A DNA stretch of 64,000 nucleotides, taken from NCBI RefSeq assembly GCF_900116705.1, contig NZ_FPBP01000005.1:124001-188000 (forward strand), written 5' to 3'. Under the pieces are notes generated by a model. The model had not been told where the DNA came from. It did no database searches and worked only from the letters and a program-made list of their open reading frames with translations. The position numbers and the translations under genes are program-made. Below are positions 34,787-43,499 of the stretch, one piece after another (positions within the stretch are counted from its first letter, which is position 1; each line of letters starts with the position of its first letter). The stretch comes from Halomonas korlensis (lineage in GTDB: Bacteria; Pseudomonadota; Gammaproteobacteria; Pseudomonadales; Halomonadaceae).

Positions 34787-35054
34787 ACTTCCTCCCGAAC
34801 GTTATCAACTTATCACGCTGACTATTGAGGTTAGCCCAACGGAAGTCATAAGCAAGGGGCTGAGCGAAATCCACCATAAGAATAGCTTTATTTAGTAATT
34901 TTTATGAAACGATGACCTCAAATCGACTCAAGCTTCCAGGAATATTGGCTAATTTAACGCGAGGCTATTCAGTTTCATCGTGACGAAATTAATCAACCCC
35001 GTTTTCCACACCGTATTCAGGCCTGTTCGTGAGCCTCCCCAGAGGGGATAGGCA

Positions 35055-36782
35055 TCAGAAAGGAAACACGAGGGGCGTGATCAACAGTACGGCGGCGGAG
35101 TAGGTGAGGCTGACCGGCAGGCCGACCCTGAGGAAGTCGCCCATGCTGTAGCGACCAGGAGAATAGACCATCAGGTGGGTCTGGTAGCCGTAGGGAATGA
35201 GAAAGCAGGCGCTGGCGCCGTAGGCCACGGCCATGATGAAGGGCATGGGGTCGACGCCAAAGGCCTGCGCGGTGGTCCAGGCCACGGGGAAGGCCAGCGC
35301 CGCGGCGGCGTTGTTGGTTACCGTTTCGGTGAGCAGCAGCGTGAGAAGATAGCAGCCGATGAAGGCGGCATAGACGCCATGGCCGCTGAACAGATGCTGC
35401 ATGCCCTGGGCGAGCAGATCGGCGGCGCCTGAGTTCTCAAGCCCCTGGGCCAGTGCCAATGCCGAGCCAATGATGACCCATAGCTCGAAGGGGAAACGGC
35501 GGCGCAGCTCGGCCGGGCTGAGCACACGACCGAGCAACAGCCCGCCCATCAACAGCAGCAGGCCATGAAACAACGGCAACCACTCGGCGGCGGCCAGGCC
35601 GATCACGCTGACAAAGCCGGCCAATGTCAGCCAACTCTCTCTACGGCTGAGCTGGGGGCGTGTGAGGCTGCCACTGAGCAGGTGGAAGTTGCGATCGAGG
35701 TTGCGGTGCTGGCGAAAATCGCTGCCCACGGCCATCAGCAGGCAGTCTCCCGTACGCAGGGGAATCTGCCCAAGCTGGCCTTCCAGGCGCTTGCCACCGC
35801 GACGGATGCCTACTACGCCGGCATTGAACATGCTGCGAAAATCCACCTCCTGCAAGGTCTGCCCGGCCAGTTCAGATTCGTGGGAGATCACCACTTCCAC
35901 CAGATTGGTGGCCAGTAGGGCGTCGGCCTGGTGGCCGAACAGCTTGAGCCCCGGAAAACGCTGCAGCGCCTGGACCTTGCGCACCTCGCCGGTGAACACC
36001 AGTGTGTCCCCTTCGTGCAGAATCTCCTCCGGCCCCACGGGGCTGATCAGCCGGCCTCCCCGCTCGATTTCCAGCAGGTAAAGCCCCTCCAGGCTACGCA
36101 GGCCGTTGGCCTCGATGCTGCGGCCGATCAGCTCGGAACCCGGCTGCAGGTCGGCGGCCAGGAAATAGGAAAGCTTGTCGGCAGTTGCCTCGGGCATATG
36201 GTGCGGCAGCGACTGGGCCCGCCAGAGCAATACGCCGAAGGTCAGCAGGGCCACCGGTATCCCGACCAGACTGAACTGGAACATACCCAGTTCAAAGCCG
36301 GCGCTGCTCAGGGCGAAGGAATTCACTACCAGATTGGTGGAGGTTCCCACCAAGGTCGTCACGCCGCCGAGGATGGAGGCGTAGGACAGCGGGATCAGCA
36401 GCCGCGAGGGGGCAATACGTGTCTGCCGAGATATGGCGCCCAGGAAGGCGGCGACCACCGCGGTATTGTTGAGAAAGGCCGACAACACGGCACTGGTACC
36501 CATGAGGCGGGCGGTGGCACTGCTTGGCCGGCCTCGCAGCAGGCGCTGGGAAAGCCAGTCCAACAAGGGGGTACGTTCCAGCGCCAGCGAGACCAGCAGC
36601 AACAGGATAAGGGTGGCCAGCGCCGGATTGGTGTACTGGCGCAGTAGCGTCGCGGTATCCACCAGGCCGAACAGCAGGTAGGCCCCGGCCAGGCTGACGA
36701 AGGCGATGGCCGGGCGCACGCGCCCGCTGATCAGCAGGGCCAGCAGGCCGACGATGGAAAGCAGCACCGCCCAGGTCATCAT
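35055..36782 (-). CDS. SLC13/DASS-family permease with RCK_C domains (putative sulfate permease)
   Basis: This 575-residue inner-membrane sodium-coupled anion transporter has helices on both sides of a central soluble part (about residues 200-375) holding two TrkA_C/RCK_C domains. Family marks are LSAFLNNTAVVAAFLGA and LIPLSYASILGGVTTLVGTS in the first half, ETVTNNAAAALAFPVAWTT and ASACFLIPYGYQTHLMV in the second. Such fused permeases include known sulfate carriers. Divergence from a gene group containing cysD-cysNC-cysQ makes sulfate the best guess. A paralogue lies at 56867. Start at 36782 has AAGGA upstream. Confidence 0.85.
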   Translation of the reverse strand: MMTWAVLLSIVGLLALLISGRVRPAIAFVSLAGAYLLFGLVDTATLLRQYTNPALATLILLLLVSLALERTPLLDWLSQRLLRGRPSSATARLMGTSAVLSAFLNNTAVVAAFLGAISRQTRIAPSRLLIPLSYASILGGVTTLVGTSTNLVVNSFALSSAGFELGMFQFSLVGIPVALLTFGVLLWRAQSLPHHMPEATADKLSYFLAADLQPGSELIGRSIEANGLRSLEGLYLLEIERGGRLISPVGPEEILHEGDTLVFTGEVRKVQALQRFPGLKLFGHQADALLATNLVEVVISHESELAGQTLQEVDFRSMFNAGVVGIRRGGKRLEGQLGQIPLRTGDCLLMAVGSDFRQHRNLDRNFHLLSGSLTRPQLSRRESWLTLAGFVSVIGLAAAEWLPLFHGLLLLMGGLLLGRVLSPAELRRRFPFELWVIIGSALALAQGLENSGAADLLAQGMQHLFSGHGVYAAFIGCYLLTLLLTETVTNNAAAALAFPVAWTTAQAFGVDPMPFIMAVAYGASACFLIPYGYQTHLMVYSPGRYSMGDFLRVGLPVSLTYSAAVLLITPLVFPF

Positions 36783-36933
36783 GGTGGATTATCCTTGCAG
36801 GGTCGAATCAGGGTTGTGAGATTCTACGCAACCTTTTATGCTGAAGTCGATCTACCACATAAAATGTTTTACCTTTCAACTATAAATTACGCCAAGTCAG
36901 CAGGTTGCAGAAAAATTGCCGACTAAACATTTA
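36783..36933. promoter_or_regulatory. A/T-rich divergent promoter region of the second sulfate module
   Basis: 151 bp between the permease and the transposase-derived gene. The block at about 36828-36892 is strongly A/T-rich and includes ATAAAATGTTTTACC and ACTATAAATTACG, so both divergent promoters probably lie here. No specific operator is proven. Confidence 0.45.
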
Positions 36934-37689
36934 ATGCCTGACAATCTCAACAAGCGCCGCCATGAAGCGGTTCGCTTGCGCCTGGACGGCCATACGGTCG
37001 CCGAGACCAGTCAACGCACCGGGTTGTCGGCGCCTACCGTATCGGCGGCCTGGAAGGCATTTCGCGAAGGCGGCTGGGAATCGGTTGATGTCCGTCAGCG
37101 GGGTCGTCGGACCGGCCAGACGCCGAGGCTGGGCGAGGCCGAACAGCGCGTGCTCCGGCAGTGCCTGGCCGATTGGCCGCCCTCTCCACAGCCGGGCTGG
37201 AGCAGCCGCGAGCTTGTCGAAAGGCTTGCGGTAGCGACAGGGCAAAAGGTCTCGACACGGGCCATCGAGCACTGGCTGGCGGCCCAGGGTCTCAAACCAG
37301 CGCCCGTGAGGCTGGAAGGCCTGGAACGCAAGCGCTCCGCGGCGGGCCGCTGGTATCGGCAGCAAGTCTTGCCGGTGCTCGAACAGATCAAGCAGGCCAA
37401 CGGGACCCACTGGCAAGGCGGCGTTCGAGTAGCGCCTCAGGCCCACGATGATGCCCCATGCCGCTATCAACTCTATTTGCATGGGAAACGCGGCGCGTTG
37501 TTGACCCGTTGTTTCACGGAGCCACCCAACGCGGGTTATTACCTGACGCTATTCGAGCGACTCGCGACTGCGGGTCCCGTCGCCCTGGTCTTTCACGGGG
37601 CGTTCTTTCGGGCCAGCAGCGAGGTGCAGGCATGGCTGAGCGAGCATCCCCACTTTCATCTGCTCAGCGTGCCAGCCGATGCGCTATGA
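36934..37689 (+). CDS. IS630-like transposase-derived DNA-binding protein, catalytically dead
   Basis: A 251-residue protein with the domain order of an IS630 transposase: a first HTH (residues 11-45, TVAETSQRTGLSAPTVSAAW), a second winged HTH (69-120), then a DDE-type fold. The catalytic acids are gone. Where IS630 enzymes have a DE pair after a Trp it reads THWQGGVRV (158-166). Where they have the second Asp in an LVxDxxxxH segment it reads ALVFHGAFFRAS. The protein stops before the third acidic site. The reading frame is intact and GC-rich, and no inverted repeats were seen. It may be a domesticated regulator of the adjacent sulfate genes. TTG at 36916 is an alternative start. Confidence 0.75.
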   Translation: MPDNLNKRRHEAVRLRLDGHTVAETSQRTGLSAPTVSAAWKAFREGGWESVDVRQRGRRTGQTPRLGEAEQRVLRQCLADWPPSPQPGWSSRELVERLAVATGQKVSTRAIEHWLAAQGLKPAPVRLEGLERKRSAAGRWYRQQVLPVLEQIKQANGTHWQGGVRVAPQAHDDAPCRYQLYLHGKRGALLTRCFTEPPNAGYYLTLFERLATAGPVALVFHGAFFRASSEVQAWLSEHPHFHLLSVPADAL

Positions 37690-37787
37690 GCTGCGCGATT
37701 CGGGCTTCGAGTTGAGGGCTCAAGCTGCGGGTCAAAACAAGCATCAGCGACCCACCGAGCTAACCTATCAAAAATGGAAACCCATCG

Positions 37788-38690
37788 ATGACATCATTGA
37801 CCCATCTGCAACGGCTCGAGGCCGAAAGCATTCAGATCATGCGCGAGGTGGTCGCCGAGACCGAGAATCCGGTGATGCTGTATTCCGTGGGCAAGGACAG
37901 CGCCGTAATGCTGCATCTGGCGCGCAAGGCCTTCGCACCTTCCCCGCCGCCCTTCCCGCTGCTCCACGTCGACACGCGCTGGAAGTTTCGCGCCATGTAC
38001 GAGTTCCGCGACCAGATGGCCAAGGACGTCGGCATGGACCTGCTGGTGCATATCAATCCGGAGGGTATCGAGAAGGACATCAATCCTTTTACCCACGGCT
38101 CGGCGATCCACACCGATGTCATGAAGACCGAAGGCCTCAAGCAGGCGCTGGACAAGTATGGCTTCGATGCCGCCTTCGGCGGGGCGCGACGCGACGAGGA
38201 GAAATCCCGCGCCAAGGAGCGCGTGTTCTCCTTCCGGTCTGCCCAGCACCGCTGGGACCCCAAGAACCAGCGCCCTGAGTTGTGGAAGCTCTACAACACG
38301 CGCAAGCACAAGGGCGAGTCGATCCGCGTCTTTCCGCTTTCCAACTGGACCGAGCTGGATATCTGGCAATACATCTACCTGCAGAGCATTCCCATCGTGC
38401 CGCTGTACTACGCCGCCGAGCGCCCGGTGGTGGAGCGTGATGGCGCACTGATCATGGTCGACGACGAGCGCATGCCGCTGGAGCCCGGCGAGGTGCCGAT
38501 GATGCGCAAGGTGCGCTTTCGCACCCTGGGCTGCTACCCGCTCACCGGTGCGATTGAATCCGAGGCCGACACGCTTCCTGCGATCATTCAGGAAATGCTG
38601 CTGACCAAGACCTCCGAACGCCAGGGCCGCGTCATCGACCACGACAGCGCCGCCTCCATGGAAAAGAAAAAGCAGGAAGGATACTTCTGA
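37788..38690 (+). CDS. cysD: Sulfate adenylyltransferase small subunit, second copy
   Basis: This second CysD has 300 residues and starts directly at the family N-terminus ([18 protein letters not shown]), without the extension of the first copy. The PP-loop [18 protein letters not shown] and [15 protein letters not shown] are intact. It differs from the copy at 12340 in many places, so it is an old paralogue or a transferred copy, not a recent duplication. No strong ribosome-binding site is visible before 37788. Its stop shares one base with the cysNC start (TGATG). Confidence 0.95.
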
Positions 38691-40594
38691 TGTCTCATTC
38701 ATCTGACATGATCGCCGAGGACATTGAGCAGTATCTCAAGTCCCACGAGCACAAGGGCCTGCTGCGCTTCATCACCTGCGGCAGCGTCGACGACGGCAAG
38801 AGCACGCTGATCGGCCGGCTGTTATTTGAATCCAAGCTGCTGTTCGAGGATCAGCTGGCCGCCATCGAGGCCGACTCGAAGAAGTACGGCACCCAGGGCA
38901 ACGAGATGGACTTCGCGCTGCTCGTCGATGGCCTGGCCGCCGAGCGTGAGCAGGGCATCACCATCGATGTGGCCTACCGCTTCTTCTCTACCAACAAGCG
39001 CAAGTTCATCGTTGCCGATACCCCGGGGCACGAACAATACACCCGCAACATGGTGACCGGCGCTTCCACCACGGATGCGGCGATCCTGATGGTCGATGCC
39101 CGCTATGGCATCCTCACCCAGACCCGCCGCCACAGCTTCCTGATGTCGCTGATCGGCATGCGCCACCTGGTCGTGGCGATCAACAAGATGGACCTGGTCG
39201 ACTACTCGAAACAGCGCTTCGAGGAGATCGTCGAGGAGTACAAGGTATTTGCCAAGCAGCTCGGGCTGGAGGAGATCACCTTCATCCCGATGTCGGCGCT
39301 CAAGGGCGATAATGTCATCGAGCATGGCCACCATATGCCCTGGTATCACGGCCCTACCCTGATGGCCTACCTGGAAACGGTGGAAGTCGACGACGAACGC
39401 CTGCAACGCAACCCGTTCCGTATGCCGGTGCAGTGGGTCAACCGCCCCAACCTGGATTTCCGAGGCTTCACCGGCATGGTGTCCAGCGGCACGGTGAAGC
39501 CGGGAGATGCGATTCGCGTGCAGCCTTCCGGCAAGTCCAGCAGGGTCGCGCGGATCTACACCTACGACGGTGATCTTGAAATGGCCGTGGCGGGCCAGTC
39601 CATTACCTTACTGCTGGACGACGAGATCGATATTTCTCGCGGTGACGTGATCTCCGGCGTTGAGCGGCCGTCCCAGACCGCCGACCAGTTCGAGACTTCC
39701 CTGGTATGGATGCACGAGCAGCCGCTGCTGCCGGGTCGCCCTTACCTGATGAAGCTGGGCACCCAGACCGTCTCGGCCACCGTCACCGACGTCAAGTACC
39801 AGGTCAACGTCAACACCCTGGAACATACGGCGGCCAAGCAATTGGATCTCAACGCCATCGGGATATGCACCCTGAGCCTGGACCGGGCTGTAGCCTTCGA
39901 CCCCTACCAGGAGTGCCAGGACACCGGTGGCTTCATTCTGATCGACCGGATGACCAACAACACCGTTGGAGCCGGGATGCTGCACTTCGCCCTGCGCCGC
40001 AGCCAGAACATCCATATGCAGCACGTGGATATCGACAAGCAGGCGCGTGCGCTCTCCAAGGGGCAGCAACCTGCGGTGCTGTGGTTCACCGGCCTCTCTG
40101 GTGCCGGCAAGTCCACCATCGCCAATCTGGTGGAAAAGAAGCTGCATGCGGCCGGCCAGCACACCTACCTGCTGGACGGTGACAACGTACGCCACGGCCT
40201 CAACCGTGACCTGGGCTTCACCGACGCCGACCGCGTCGAGAATATCCGCCGCGTCGGCGAAATGGCCAAGATAATGGTGGACGCCGGCCTGATCGTGCTC
40301 ACCGCCTTCATCTCACCCTTCCGTAGCGAACGCCAGCTGGCCCGCGATCTGATGGAGGATGGCGAGTTCATCGAGATCTTCGTCGATACCCCGCTGGACG
40401 TGGCAGAAGAGCGTGATCCCAAGGGGCTCTATCGCAAGGCCCGCCGCGGCGAGCTGAAGAACTTCACCGGCATCGACTCCGCCTACGAGGCACCCGAGTC
40501 ACCCGACCTGCACCTCAGGACCACCGAGATGAGCAGCGACGAGGCGGCCGACGCGATCATCGGGTTGCTGCGTGAGCGGCACGTGATTGCCTGA
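38690..40594 (+). CDS. cysNC: Bifunctional sulfate adenylyltransferase GTPase / APS kinase
   Basis: A 634-residue fusion of CysN (about 1-450) and CysC (about 455-634). The GTPase part has GSVDDGKST (31-39), [12 protein letters not shown] and SALK. The APS kinase part has LSGAGKST near residue 470 (P-loop), the FISPFRSER active segment and [20 protein letters not shown]. With CysD it makes APS and then PAPS in one complex. The stand-alone CysN at 10892 lacks the kinase. cysQ follows, consistent with PAPS turnover. Confidence 0.96.
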
Positions 40595-40669
40595 CGCCCG
40601 ACCTGACCACTGACACGGACGCTGCCATCCGGCGGCGTCCTGTCTTCTCATCATTGAGCCGGCCCTTTC

Positions 40670-40704
40670 CTTTCGAGATAGTTATGGCTTTCGAGGTAGT
40701 TATG
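40670..40704 (+). repeat. 18-bp tandem duplication of the cysQ ribosome-binding site and start codon
   Basis: CTTTCGAGATAGTTATG (40670-40686) and CTTTCGAGGTAGTTATG (40688-40704) differ at one base and have a period of 18 bp, so the reading frame is preserved and two starts are available. Confidence 0.85.
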
Positions 40705-41511
40705 TCCCTTGCAACATCGTCACTTGCACAGCTGTTGAGCGATATCGAGCGAATCGCCCGAGACGCGGGCGAGGCCATCATGGCCGTTTATGCTCGCGAT
40801 TTCACGGTGGAGGAGAAGGCAGACAAGAGCCCGCTGACCGAAGCGGACAAGGCCGCCCACGACGTCATCGTCAGCGGGCTCGAAGCCCTGCCGGGCAACA
40901 TCCCCGTGCTCTCCGAGGAGAACACCGAGGGCTTTGCCGGGGTAGACGCCGACGGCCGTTACTGGCTGGTCGACCCGCTGGACGGCACCAAGGAGTTCAT
41001 CAAGCGTAACGGCGAGTTCACGGTGAACATCGCGCTGATCGAGAACGGCAGGCCGGTGCTCGGCGTGGTCGTCGCCCCGGCACTGGATGTGGCCTATCTG
41101 GCCGCCGAGGGAGTAGGCGCCTTCAAGGTGGAAGGCAGCGGCGAGCGTCAACCCATCCACGTGGGTGGCAAGCCGCGAGCCGGTGCGTCCTACCGCGTGG
41201 TAGGCAGCCGCTCCCATCCCAGCCCTGACTTGTCCGACTGGCTGAAGACATTGGGCTCGCACGACATGGTGCCGATGGGCAGCTCACTCAAGCTCTGCCT
41301 TGTCGCCGAAGGCGCGGCGGATGTCTACCCCCGCCTCGGCCCCACTTGCCTGTGGGATACCGGGGCCGCTCAGGCCGTGGTCGAACAAGCCGGCGGTCGG
41401 GTGGAAACGCTGGAGGGCCAGCCGCTGAGCTATGCAAACCCCAGTGACTATCTGAACCCGCATTTCGTCGTTGCCGGCTGGAACGATCATCACCGACCAA
41501 GCACGCGATGA
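40702..41511 (+). CDS. cysQ: 3'(2'),5'-bisphosphate nucleotidase
   Basis: CysQ dephosphorylates PAP (and PAPS), clearing the by-product of PAPS use. The 269-residue inositol-monophosphatase-fold protein has LSEEN (metal Glu), the DPLDGTKEFIKRNGEF motif and the C-terminal WDTGAAQAVVEQAGG. Two in-frame ATGs (40684 and 40702) each follow their own GAGATAG or GAGGTAG, because an 18-bp stretch covering ribosome-binding site and start codon is tandemly duplicated. 40702 has the better site. It lies 107 bp after cysNC. It converges with the diguanylate cyclase gene, 11 bp between stops. Confidence 0.94.
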   Translation: MSLATSSLAQLLSDIERIARDAGEAIMAVYARDFTVEEKADKSPLTEADKAAHDVIVSGLEALPGNIPVLSEENTEGFAGVDADGRYWLVDPLDGTKEFIKRNGEFTVNIALIENGRPVLGVVVAPALDVAYLAAEGVGAFKVEGSGERQPIHVGGKPRAGASYRVVGSRSHPSPDLSDWLKTLGSHDMVPMGSSLKLCLVAEGAADVYPRLGPTCLWDTGAAQAVVEQAGGRVETLEGQPLSYANPSDYLNPHFVVAGWNDHHRPSTR

Positions 41512-41522
41512 CACGACGCGTC

Positions 41523-43499
41523 TCAGTCGGTGGCGACCATGACCCGATCCCGGCCGGCCTCCTTGGCGTGGTAACTGGCGGCATCGGCTCGCGCTATCAC
41601 GGCCGCGGTATCGTGGTCGCTGCCACGAAAGGCGGTGACACCAATGCTCAACGAAACACGAAATTCCTGGCCCTGGTGGACCACGTAGACTTCACGCACC
41701 GAGCAGCGCACGGTATCGGCGACGCGTTTCGCTTGCTCGAGGGTGCAGCTCGGTAGCAGCACCGCAAACTCATCGCCGCCCTGACGCGCCACGTAATCGC
41801 TGCGTCGCACCTCCCACGCCAACACCTGGGCGATGCGGCGCAGCATTTCATCCCCCAGCGCATGGCCACCCTCATCGTTCACGGGTTTGAAATGATCGAG
41901 GTCGAACAGTATCAGCGCTGATGGCGTGCCCGTCTTGTGCCATTCCGCCAGGGCCTCCTCGAGGCGACGCTCGAAACCACGACGGTTCAGCAGTCCGGTC
42001 AGCGGGTCGTGCTCGGCCTCCCAGCGGCGCAAGGCATCCTCATGATAGCGCTCGGTAATGTCCTTCACCGTACCCACGAAGCCGATATTGCGGCCCTGGA
42101 TCGACACCAGGCTGGCGTGAACCTCCAGCCACAAGGTGTCACCGTTGGCGTGCAAGAAGCGGAACTGCTGGAGGAAGGGATCGCCGCTGGCAAGGCTATG
42201 TCGCCAGAGATCCATCGCCGAATCCCGGTCGCCCGTATGGATATGCGCCAGCCAGACGACCTCGCCACGCGTGGTGAAATCATGGCCGGTCAGCTCCTTC
42301 AGGGCCGGGTTCATGTAACTGAAGCGGCCCGCCATATCGGTGACGAACATTCCCAGCGGCGAGGAGGCCAGCACGGCATCGAGAAACGCCTGCCTGTCGG
42401 ATAGCCGCAAATGCGCTTCGCTGCGCTCCGCCTCGACCCGATTGAAGGTGTCGGCCAGGTTGATGAGTTCATGCATGTGCGTGGCCAACGCGATACGGCT
42501 GCGCCGCCCCTCGCCTACCTCATGGATCTGTCTTGCCAGGCGGTGCAGCGGCGACAGCGTTCGCCGCACCAGTCCCCACATGACGGGTAGCGTCAGTAAC
42601 GCAAATGCCGCCCCGCCCCACCACAGCCACTGGATCAACAGGGCCATTGGCTCGAGCACCTGTTTCTCGGGCAGGGCGACGCCGACGATCCAGTCGGCCG
42701 GCCAGATCTGATTGAAGGATTGATAGGCTTCTCCGCCACCGATCATCGGTGTGACGGTTTTCCCCTCCCAGCCATCGAGCGCACGATGCAGGAGAGGATG
42801 GGCCTCGAGCGAGGGCACCGGCTGCAATATCTGGTCAGCCTGGGGATGATAGAGGATCGTGCCCGACGCCGTGGCCACTGCGGCGTACCCACCGTCTCCC
42901 AGCCGCAAGCGCTGCAAGCGTGCGAACAACTCACCCGAGCGGATATCGACGAAACCACCGACAAAGCCATTGAACTCACCGTCACGCCAACGCGGCACGG
43001 TAAACAACACCAGGGGCTTGTCACTGGCGCGCCCGGTAAAGGGCTCGCTGACATAGGGCCTTTGTACCGCCCGCAAGAAGCGGAAGTACTCGGTGTCCTT
43101 GGTTTCAAGCCCCACCCGCCCGTCCATTTCGGGCCAATCGGCCTGAACCACGCCCTGGGCATCCGCCACCACCAGGCCATCGAACCATTCGAGCAACGCC
43201 GTGTTATGCCTGAGCTCTTCACGCAGGCGCGCATGGCCTTGCTCGCCGAGCATGGCCTCGAGCCGCTGTAGCGCTCCCAAGCGCTGATCCACCTGAGTAC
43301 TGAGCTCTTCGGCGATGACCCGCGATTCATAGCTCAGATGCGTGAAATTGACCTCACTGATCAACGAACGACCGATCCATCCCGCCGCACCGAGCAACAG
43401 CAACGCCACCACCACCCAGGTGATCGCCAGGCCGAGCATCAAGCGGCTCTGCAGGGACGTCAGCAACCGCAGCGAACGTTTCACACGTGGAAAATGCAA
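41523..43499 (-). CDS. Membrane-bound diguanylate cyclase (Cache-PAS-GGDEF)
   Basis: A 658-residue c-di-GMP synthase. One helix (about 20-45) precedes a periplasmic double-Cache sensor (about 50-290, with YVSEPFTGRASDKPLVLFTV), and a second helix follows. A HAMP-like linker, a PAS domain (FLDAVLASSPLGMFVTDMAG onward) and a GGDEF domain complete it. The active site reads RRSDYVARQGGDEFAVL: GGDEF is intact, and RxxD five residues before it is a functional-type inhibitory I-site. The enzyme should be active and product-inhibited, controlled by an extracellular ligand. There is no EAL domain. Confidence 0.93.
   Translation of the reverse strand: MHFPRVKRSLRLLTSLQSRLMLGLAITWVVVALLLLGAAGWIGRSLISEVNFTHLSYESRVIAEELSTQVDQRLGALQRLEAMLGEQGHARLREELRHNTALLEWFDGLVVADAQGVVQADWPEMDGRVGLETKDTEYFRFLRAVQRPYVSEPFTGRASDKPLVLFTVPRWRDGEFNGFVGGFVDIRSGELFARLQRLRLGDGGYAAVATASGTILYHPQADQILQPVPSLEAHPLLHRALDGWEGKTVTPMIGGGEAYQSFNQIWPADWIVGVALPEKQVLEPMALLIQWLWWGGAAFALLTLPVMWGLVRRTLSPLHRLARQIHEVGEGRRSRIALATHMHELINLADTFNRVEAERSEAHLRLSDRQAFLDAVLASSPLGMFVTDMAGRFSYMNPALKELTGHDFTTRGEVVWLAHIHTGDRDSAMDLWRHSLASGDPFLQQFRFLHANGDTLWLEVHASLVSIQGRNIGFVGTVKDITERYHEDALRRWEAEHDPLTGLLNRRGFERRLEEALAEWHKTGTPSALILFDLDHFKPVNDEGGHALGDEMLRRIAQVLAWEVRRSDYVARQGGDEFAVLLPSCTLEQAKRVADTVRCSVREVYVVHQGQEFRVSLSIGVTAFRGSDHDTAAVIARADAASYHAKEAGRDRVMVATD

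Follow-up and report, generated by a model that had tools for sequence, protein, structure and literature searches.

TnpL, a catalytically dead IS630-type protein beside cysD in Halomonas and fused to CysD in two other lineages, as a candidate local regulator of sulfate uptake and activation

The window, by which is meant the whole 64,000-nucleotide stretch of Halomonas korlensis DNA that was analysed, carries a gene for an IS630-type protein, here called TnpL. This gene is flanked by a divergent permease gene and by cysD, cysNC, and cysQ (Table 1), with the downstream cysNC and cysQ fitting PAPS formation and turnover. An earlier note on this DNA described an intact frame at 36934–37689. The frame is indeed intact, and its start is better placed at the TTG at 36916, from which the ORF is open to 37689; the ATG at 36934, i.e., the earlier start, is internal. 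An N-terminal arm, xTKHLSPE, follows a TTG or ATG at the matching place in most relatives, and TnpL thus is best taken as 257 aa. Pfam and NCBIfam domain scoring made use of the 251-aa version, that is, as starting at 36934.

Table 1. Features of the permease–TnpL–cysDNC region, in window coordinates
Feature	Position	Strand	Description
Divergent permease	35055..36782	-	CitMHS and Na_sulph_symp matches, TrkA_C domains
Conserved element between permease and TnpL	36813..36850	.	38-bp candidate operator; readable as overlapping divergent promoters
Possible promoter of TnpL-cysD-cysNC	36814..36842	+	TTGTGA, 17 bp, TATGCT; by eye from conserved columns, not listed by consensus scan
Promoter-like site towards permease	36821..36850	-	TCGACT, 18 bp, TAGAAT; 1 found vs 0.2 expected in shuffles
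Second conserved DNA stretch, over TnpL start codon	36916..36942	.	Often a rare TTA Leu codon
TnpL, catalytically dead IS630-type protein	36916..37689	+	257 aa, TTG start
First HTH of TnpL, residues 9-58	36940..37089	+	Best-conserved part
Second HTH of TnpL, residues 74-127	37135..37296	+	With first HTH resembles a paired domain (model)
Truncated RNase-H/DDE-like core, residues 161-252	37396..37671	+	Without catalytic acids (model, alignment)
Gly168-Gly169	37417..37422	+	Place of transposase first catalytic Asp and following Glu
His227	37594..37596	+	Place of transposase second catalytic Asp
cysD	37788..38690	+	Sulfate adenylyltransferase small subunit (NCBIfam)
cysNC	38690..40594	+	Sulfate adenylyltransferase large subunit fused to APS kinase (NCBIfam)
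cysQ	40654..41511	+	3'(2'),5'-bisphosphate nucleotidase (NCBIfam)

Two helix-turn-helix (HTH) domains along with an IS630-type DDE fold had been claimed for this protein, and Pfam, NCBIfam, and a structure model bear both out. Pfam matches to HTH_28 (32.7 bits) and HTH_23 (28 bits) are above their cut-offs, those to HTH_29 and HTH_32 are under theirs, and NCBIfam transpos_IS630 scores 63.2 bits vs a cut-off of 100, i.e., below the cut-off of the curated model. The structure model (pLDDT 86.6, 13 sequences) has HTH helices at residues 8–52 and 74–123 followed by a mixed alpha/beta core at about 161–251, that is, the two HTHs plus RNase-H-like core of the IS630 family, with moderate fold scores. 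Foldseek places Mos1 first (E 2e-5) and then many retroviral integrases. A second structure aligner has Pax paired domains as its top match (Z 8.3; 114 residues, rmsd 9.3), with integrase cores following at Z of about 6–7 (6.8), these being moderate scores from an aligner with which a Z near or under 8 can represent a common arrangement. The main basis of the fold assignment is the sequence profile rather than these Z-scores. A sequence search of the PDB (query A2) returned a single match, to a sigma-54 factor chain of RNA polymerase (E 0.004). The first HTH has a mean column identity of 0.89 over 13 stand-alone rows and of 0.66 over 24 stand-alone and fused rows, and 12 of the 13 invariant columns among those 24 chosen rows are found within residues 15–64. 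Codon use, which was said to match that of neighbouring genes, does so roughly but not exactly, as GC3 is 0.71 in TnpL vs 0.82–0.84 in three neighbours.

The catalytic acids, by contrast, are gone. The columns of the first Asp, the next Glu, and the second Asp read D, E, and D in 7 of 7 aligned transposases (L154 and L158 having been left out of this count as degraded, and L148, L151, L153, and L157, broken or short, not used) vs G, V/A, and H/R in 48/48 stand-alone rows, the window's own TnpL included. That is, both catalytic Asp are absent from every one of those 48 rows. At the place of Gly168-Gly169 the other stand-alone rows have Gly and then Val or Ala. Stand-alone TnpL ends before or near the third acid, a column that is poorly aligned even among transposases. 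Absence of both Asp, as initially described for the one protein, thus extends to its stand-alone relatives. Among fused rows (below), Asp is found at the second catalytic place in 1 of 34 (L110), and in a repeat alignment L110, L127, and L140 have an acid near either catalytic place, but never both Asp together. Loss of catalysis is established, at least as can be judged from such alignments.

Nor does TnpL look like part of a working element. Within 36600–37900 no pair of inverted repeats of at least 10 nt is placed as IS ends would be, which agrees with the earlier failure to find terminal inverted repeats. The only inverted pair having one arm to each side of the TnpL ORF (36618–36629 / 37866–37877, 12 nt, 83%) falls inside the permease and cysD genes. 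There is one TnpL copy in the genome, with a 30% match (E 0.04) representing another, broken transposase rather than a second TnpL. This other transposase, at G000 C15 21704–21994 (L002), is IS630-like, and its C-terminal part, with LDNAS and PELN, is in a separate ORF. A mobile TnpL carried by plasmids or phages was considered and rejected, the one plasmid record being a 29.7% identical IS630 transposase in Acidovorax and phages supplying none. A single copy per the window's own genome, in combination with the same cysD type downstream in 49/49 family genomes, is not what IS630 mobility would look like. The best reading of these sequences is that TnpL is a domesticated IS630-type protein, one which does not behave as an insertion sequence.

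TnpL is present in 49 of 275 family genomes (E 1e-8), representing 4 of the 24 family genera sampled, and also in Thiorhodospira and Ectothiorhodospira. Inspection of all 49 family carriers finds one cysD type, 92–100% identical to the window's, 3' of TnpL in 49/49, and the divergent permease 5' of TnpL in 47/49. The two exceptions are G016, with no permease found inside 1.5 kb, and G130 (L037), with none found inside 6 kb. Thiorhodospira sibirica and Ectothiorhodospira shaposhnikovii display the same order, i.e., permease, TnpL, cysD, cysNC. Viewed from the perspective of the enzyme, this 'cassette' cysD type (88–100% identical) is found in 55 of the 275 genomes, with TnpL in 49 of those 55 and in 0 of the other 220 (E 1e-8). 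A check of 32 genomes that lack TnpL finds the cassette type in one of them, G011, whereas all cysD copies of the other 31 are 74–80% identical.

The six TnpL-less genomes among those 55 are G225, G011, G157, G228, G234, and G233. In G225 the locus is at a contig edge. In G157 the permease, 45% identical, is on the other side; the permease faces cysD across about 120–140 bp in both G228 and G234; and G233 retains a C-terminal remnant of TnpL (E 1.7e-4, as from a search of five short stretches). In one further carrier, G278, the TnpL gene is split over two contigs. Broken copies (G123, G255) plus five TnpL-less genomes with this cysD type imply that TnpL is dispensable. Upstream of the cassette cysD of G011 (L104 7558–8030), what appears by eye to be a remnant of another kind of transposase replaces TnpL and the permease. 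The permease match of G228 (L106 3300–4557) skips residues 175–330, the site of a TrkA_C domain. The TnpL copy of G255 (L062) has two stops, with a 1.3 kb gap between TnpL and permease. In G123 (L045 / L063) TnpL is frameshifted, with permease, cysNC, and cysQ matches split as well, and sequencing errors are possible.

For analysis of selection and of the upstream DNA a set of 48 rows was used, from which were dropped L062 (stops), L063/G123 (frameshifts), L064 and L065 (a single gene divided between two contigs), and, as duplicates of G loci, L033–L040, L042, L044, and L045. TnpL dN/dS ranges from 0.07 to 0.39, with a median of 0.136, over all 53 pairs at 72–100% identity, pairs that are not independent because branches are shared among them. 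Median values for cysD (0.015, 53 pairs) and for the permease (0.033, 52 pairs) are lower, with TnpL at about nine times cysD (0.136 vs 0.015). TnpL, that is, is constrained, yet evolves faster than its neighbours. The earlier note had looked to conservation beside cysD/cysN across genera and to dN/dS well below 1 as indications of domestication, and both are what is seen, in 49/49 family carriers (4/24 genera plus Thiorhodospira and Ectothiorhodospira) and in 53/53 close pairs, respectively. What it gave as indications to the contrary (scattered sites, intact DDE residues, terminal repeats, relaxed selection) were not found where searched for.

These same data bear on whether TnpL might instead be a functionless passenger, i.e., a transposase in the process of decay. 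The broken copies (G123, G255), along with a GC3 that is lower than in neighbours, are as might be expected of such a gene. A dN/dS far below 1 in 53/53 non-independent pairs is not, however, nor is a fixed position in 49/49 genomes, nor are, as considered below, a single clade apart from nine sampled transposases and fusion to a conserved enzyme. Decay is rejected here given the low dN/dS and fixed position, and indeed is very improbable.

Between permease and TnpL is a conserved DNA element (Table 1) that is clear in 46 of 48 aligned cassettes (22–29 of 30 consensus bases) and that lies 65–71 bp from the TnpL start in all except L009 (84). It is degraded in L006 and L014 (17 and 19 of 30), the two cassettes for which no permease was found, and it is the permease side which is degraded; as these two are close relatives, this counts as one event. 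With up to 3 mismatches, the element's core has a single match in the 4.04 Mb of the window's own genome, at this locus, vs none for the reversed control. A leave-one-out position weight matrix (PWM) over 47 members (L024 left out for a one-base shift) gives scores with a median of 58.6 and a lowest value of -1.2. For the five loci without TnpL whose upstream DNA is visible, the best scores are 0.0 (G233, where a decayed element accompanies the decayed TnpL remnant) or at most -11.9. Since the lowest-scoring member ranks under the decayed site of G233, the PWM separates the two groups incompletely. The element in any case is lost or decayed at all five of those loci, that is, jointly with TnpL. 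It is not recognisable in fused loci nor in loci of the other cysD type (PWM best -5.1). The best, weak PWM site of fused locus L110 (1386–1424, -10.9) is in its permease–TnpL intergenic region, and may be a diverged element.

Conservation of the element may stem only from its being two overlapping promoters. From that perspective TnpL could bind elsewhere, perhaps serving a wider regulon, with the element possibly read by CysB. The element does allow -10/-35 boxes to be read on either strand, those on the permease side have degraded in the related G016 and G130 (no permease found) with TTG and TTTTATG persisting, and CysB is present in the same genome. In G228 and G234, however, permease and cysD still face each other, but the element is missing along with TnpL. 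This reading as a whole is viewed as improbable. The preferred reading is that the element is a candidate operator for TnpL.

A second stretch of conserved DNA is found over the TnpL start codon. A TTA Leu codon occurs there in 17 of 27 genes that are >60% GC vs in 6 of 700 Leu codons elsewhere, and the keeping of so rare a codon over a start suggests that this stretch is constrained in part as DNA. A need for AT-rich first codons could equally be the cause, which leaves an operator reading of the stretch unsettled. That the element and start stretch are relics of inverted or direct transposon ends was rejected, as their consensus sequences are no more alike than shuffles (p 0.87, 0.69). A 12-nt inverted repeat (92%) pairs the leader, at 36858–36869, with the TnpL start region, at 36925–36936, and relatives show no clear enrichment of it. 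The window's own intergenic motif repeat (I11, I16) is not clearly enriched across 48 loci, with 10 copies vs a shuffled mean of 6.5 and maximum of 14. A riboswitch was also rejected, there being no Rfam match in 34800–41600.

The strongest link between TnpL and sulfate activation is one that the earlier note missed: in other lineages a TnpL-like domain is in frame with CysD. Searches were class-wide (369 genomes) and phylum-wide (398 genomes), with 6–7 candidates scored per genome, so that distant members can be missed. The class-wide search found four genomes outside of the family in which a TnpL-like domain, in long frames, is continuous with CysD. Sampling of their two orders then yields matches in 42 of 48 genomes for f167 and in 4 of 27 for f180, all four being of one genus. 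Domain and CysD share one open frame in 34 of 35 loci read, with 119–380 codons open upstream of the CysD match. L138 is a stretch without CysD, and the CysD of L136 and L135 is cut off by a contig end. Another 11 of the 42 f167 matches have open frames of 583–654 aa, which fits fusion, vs control cysD copies of TnpL-less genomes with total open frames mostly of 305–372 aa (one of 518). The divergent permease is present in L110 and L111 as well. The phylum-wide search found no more fusions, its non-family matches looking like transposases, several of them broken.

Of these fused proteins, 7 of 7 tested score above the NCBIfam CysD cut-off (540–562 bits vs 413), and full-length fused CysD keeps the P-loop motif in 31/33 and a 14-residue motif (letters not shown) in 26/33. 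As there is a Met within the last 60 residues before CysD in 24 of 34, a separate CysD from an internal start of the fused gene is possible. In L102 and L126 it is the first HTH alone that is found before CysD, from which it would appear that the DNA-binding unit is the part retained.

A partner role must nonetheless be weighed: TnpL as a protein partner of CysD, whether an assembly, stability, or allosteric subunit of sulfate adenylyltransferase, with any DNA binding simply left over. Fusion to CysD in two lineages as well as adjacency to cysD are as would be expected of a partner, and a stand-alone partner would also explain co-inheritance with one cysD type. Against this, the first HTH is the best-conserved part and is all that two fused proteins keep, and where TnpL is lost a conserved DNA element goes with it. 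Such a purely protein-binding TnpL seems rather unlikely, and the regulator reading is retained in what follows.

As to the domain's history, a tree of 63 rows (22 of the 48 stand-alone, 32 of the 34 fused, the two HTH-only proteins being out, and 9 transposases; L148, L151, L153, and L157 left out as broken or short) has stand-alone plus fused domains as one clade vs the nine transposases (100/100). Stand-alone rows are one clade inside of a fused background, with the placement of the long row L110 unsure. A CysD tree (70 rows) agrees in part. Cassette CysD, including that of TnpL-less G157, groups with f180 fused CysD (99/94), and the family's other cysD type falls between that group and f167 fused CysD. 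These sequences would be consistent with either an old fusion that was later lost and split or two fusion events. A tentative scenario, one which we would not presently favour over its alternatives combined, is that a transposase was captured once as the DNA-binding arm of sulfate adenylyltransferase, with the enzyme serving as sensor in the control of sulfate uptake and activation; the Halomonas stand-alone form would then be a later split that still acts via CysD.

Overall, TnpL probably is a domesticated IS630-type transposase serving as a local, self-regulating factor upon the permease and TnpL-cysD-cysNC units, with the state of CysD as its signal. Catalysis would have been lost from an IS630-type transposase, with its two-HTH, DNA-binding half plus a remnant of the DDE core being kept. 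The resulting protein most likely binds the permease–TnpL intergenic region, and would thereby adjust two divergent units, i.e., the permease in one direction and, in the other, TnpL-cysD-cysNC, its own gene included. As CysD of two other lineages carries this domain covalently, the signal probably is the state of the sulfate-activating enzyme, directly so in fused forms and through TnpL–CysD contact in Halomonas. This suggests a regulator that reads the very pathway that it controls. What the sequences show is the loss of catalysis, the fixed linkage, purifying selection, fusion in one frame, and the disappearance of the element along with TnpL, whereas DNA binding, regulation, contact with CysD, and a CysD-state signal are what we infer. 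A separate CysB is found elsewhere in the genome, and control by TnpL therefore would be local, that is, on top of the general sulfur regulator.

If true, then this is a bacterial metabolic regulator made from a DDE transposase, and one for which a whole series is available: an active transposase, the dead domain joined to an enzyme, and the dead domain standing alone as a protein. Sensing of sulfate activation is directly testable in the fused form as enzyme and DNA-binding part are there in one chain. More generally, proteins of this kind can lie hidden among genes scoring as IS630-like or as ordinary CysD. Trigger enzymes, as well as regulators domesticated from mobile elements, are already known kinds. 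The literature found, which covers the field partially and includes few subscription journals, holds no DDE-transposase-derived regulator of bacterial sulfur metabolism and no transposase–CysD fusion, and passages of PMC8987985 do not describe TnpL or such a fusion.

Among known systems, the IS630 family (NF033545, IS630-Tc1-mariner) shares with TnpL two HTHs followed by a DDE/RNase-H-like core, as seen with the 63.2-bit score and with Mos1 as top fold match, but TnpL is without catalytic acids, is truncated, and is single-copy at a fixed locus, with no IS ends in 36600–37900. CysB, the LysR-type regulator of sulfur assimilation, acts by its known family role on the pathway proposed for TnpL but is a separate gene elsewhere in the genome, with LysR-type domains that TnpL does not have: none of the LysR HTH or effector domains is among TnpL Pfam/NCBIfam matches up to E 1. 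TldR proteins descend from TnpB. They are RNA-guided regulators of phages (PMC13418256), and offer a parallel, i.e., a mobile-element protein turned bacterial transcription regulator, as is proposed for TnpL. TnpL, however, is DDE-derived, with no TnpB match among the Pfam/NCBIfam families listed for it. A search for a TldR-type guide RNA gave no Rfam match in 34800–41600, though such an RNA could lie outside of Rfam.

Also close are trigger enzymes and enzyme–regulator fusions such as PutA, NadR, and BirA, wherein a metabolic enzyme carries a part acting on gene expression and possibly on its own pathway. A fungal PAPS reductase supplies a further case (PMC4848566). Here, by contrast, the combination is a captured transposase half plus sulfate adenylyltransferase, regulation is predicted, and enzyme and DNA-binding domain, though sharing a frame at 34 of 35 loci from two other lineages, are two proteins in the window. 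BzdR (PMC3602430) is an enzyme that became a regulator by acquiring a DNA-binding domain, and likewise consists of an N-terminal DNA-binding domain, a linker, and an enzyme fold. According to that paper, the change in BzdR needed loss of enzyme activity, whereas fused CysD keeps its P-loop motif in 31/33.
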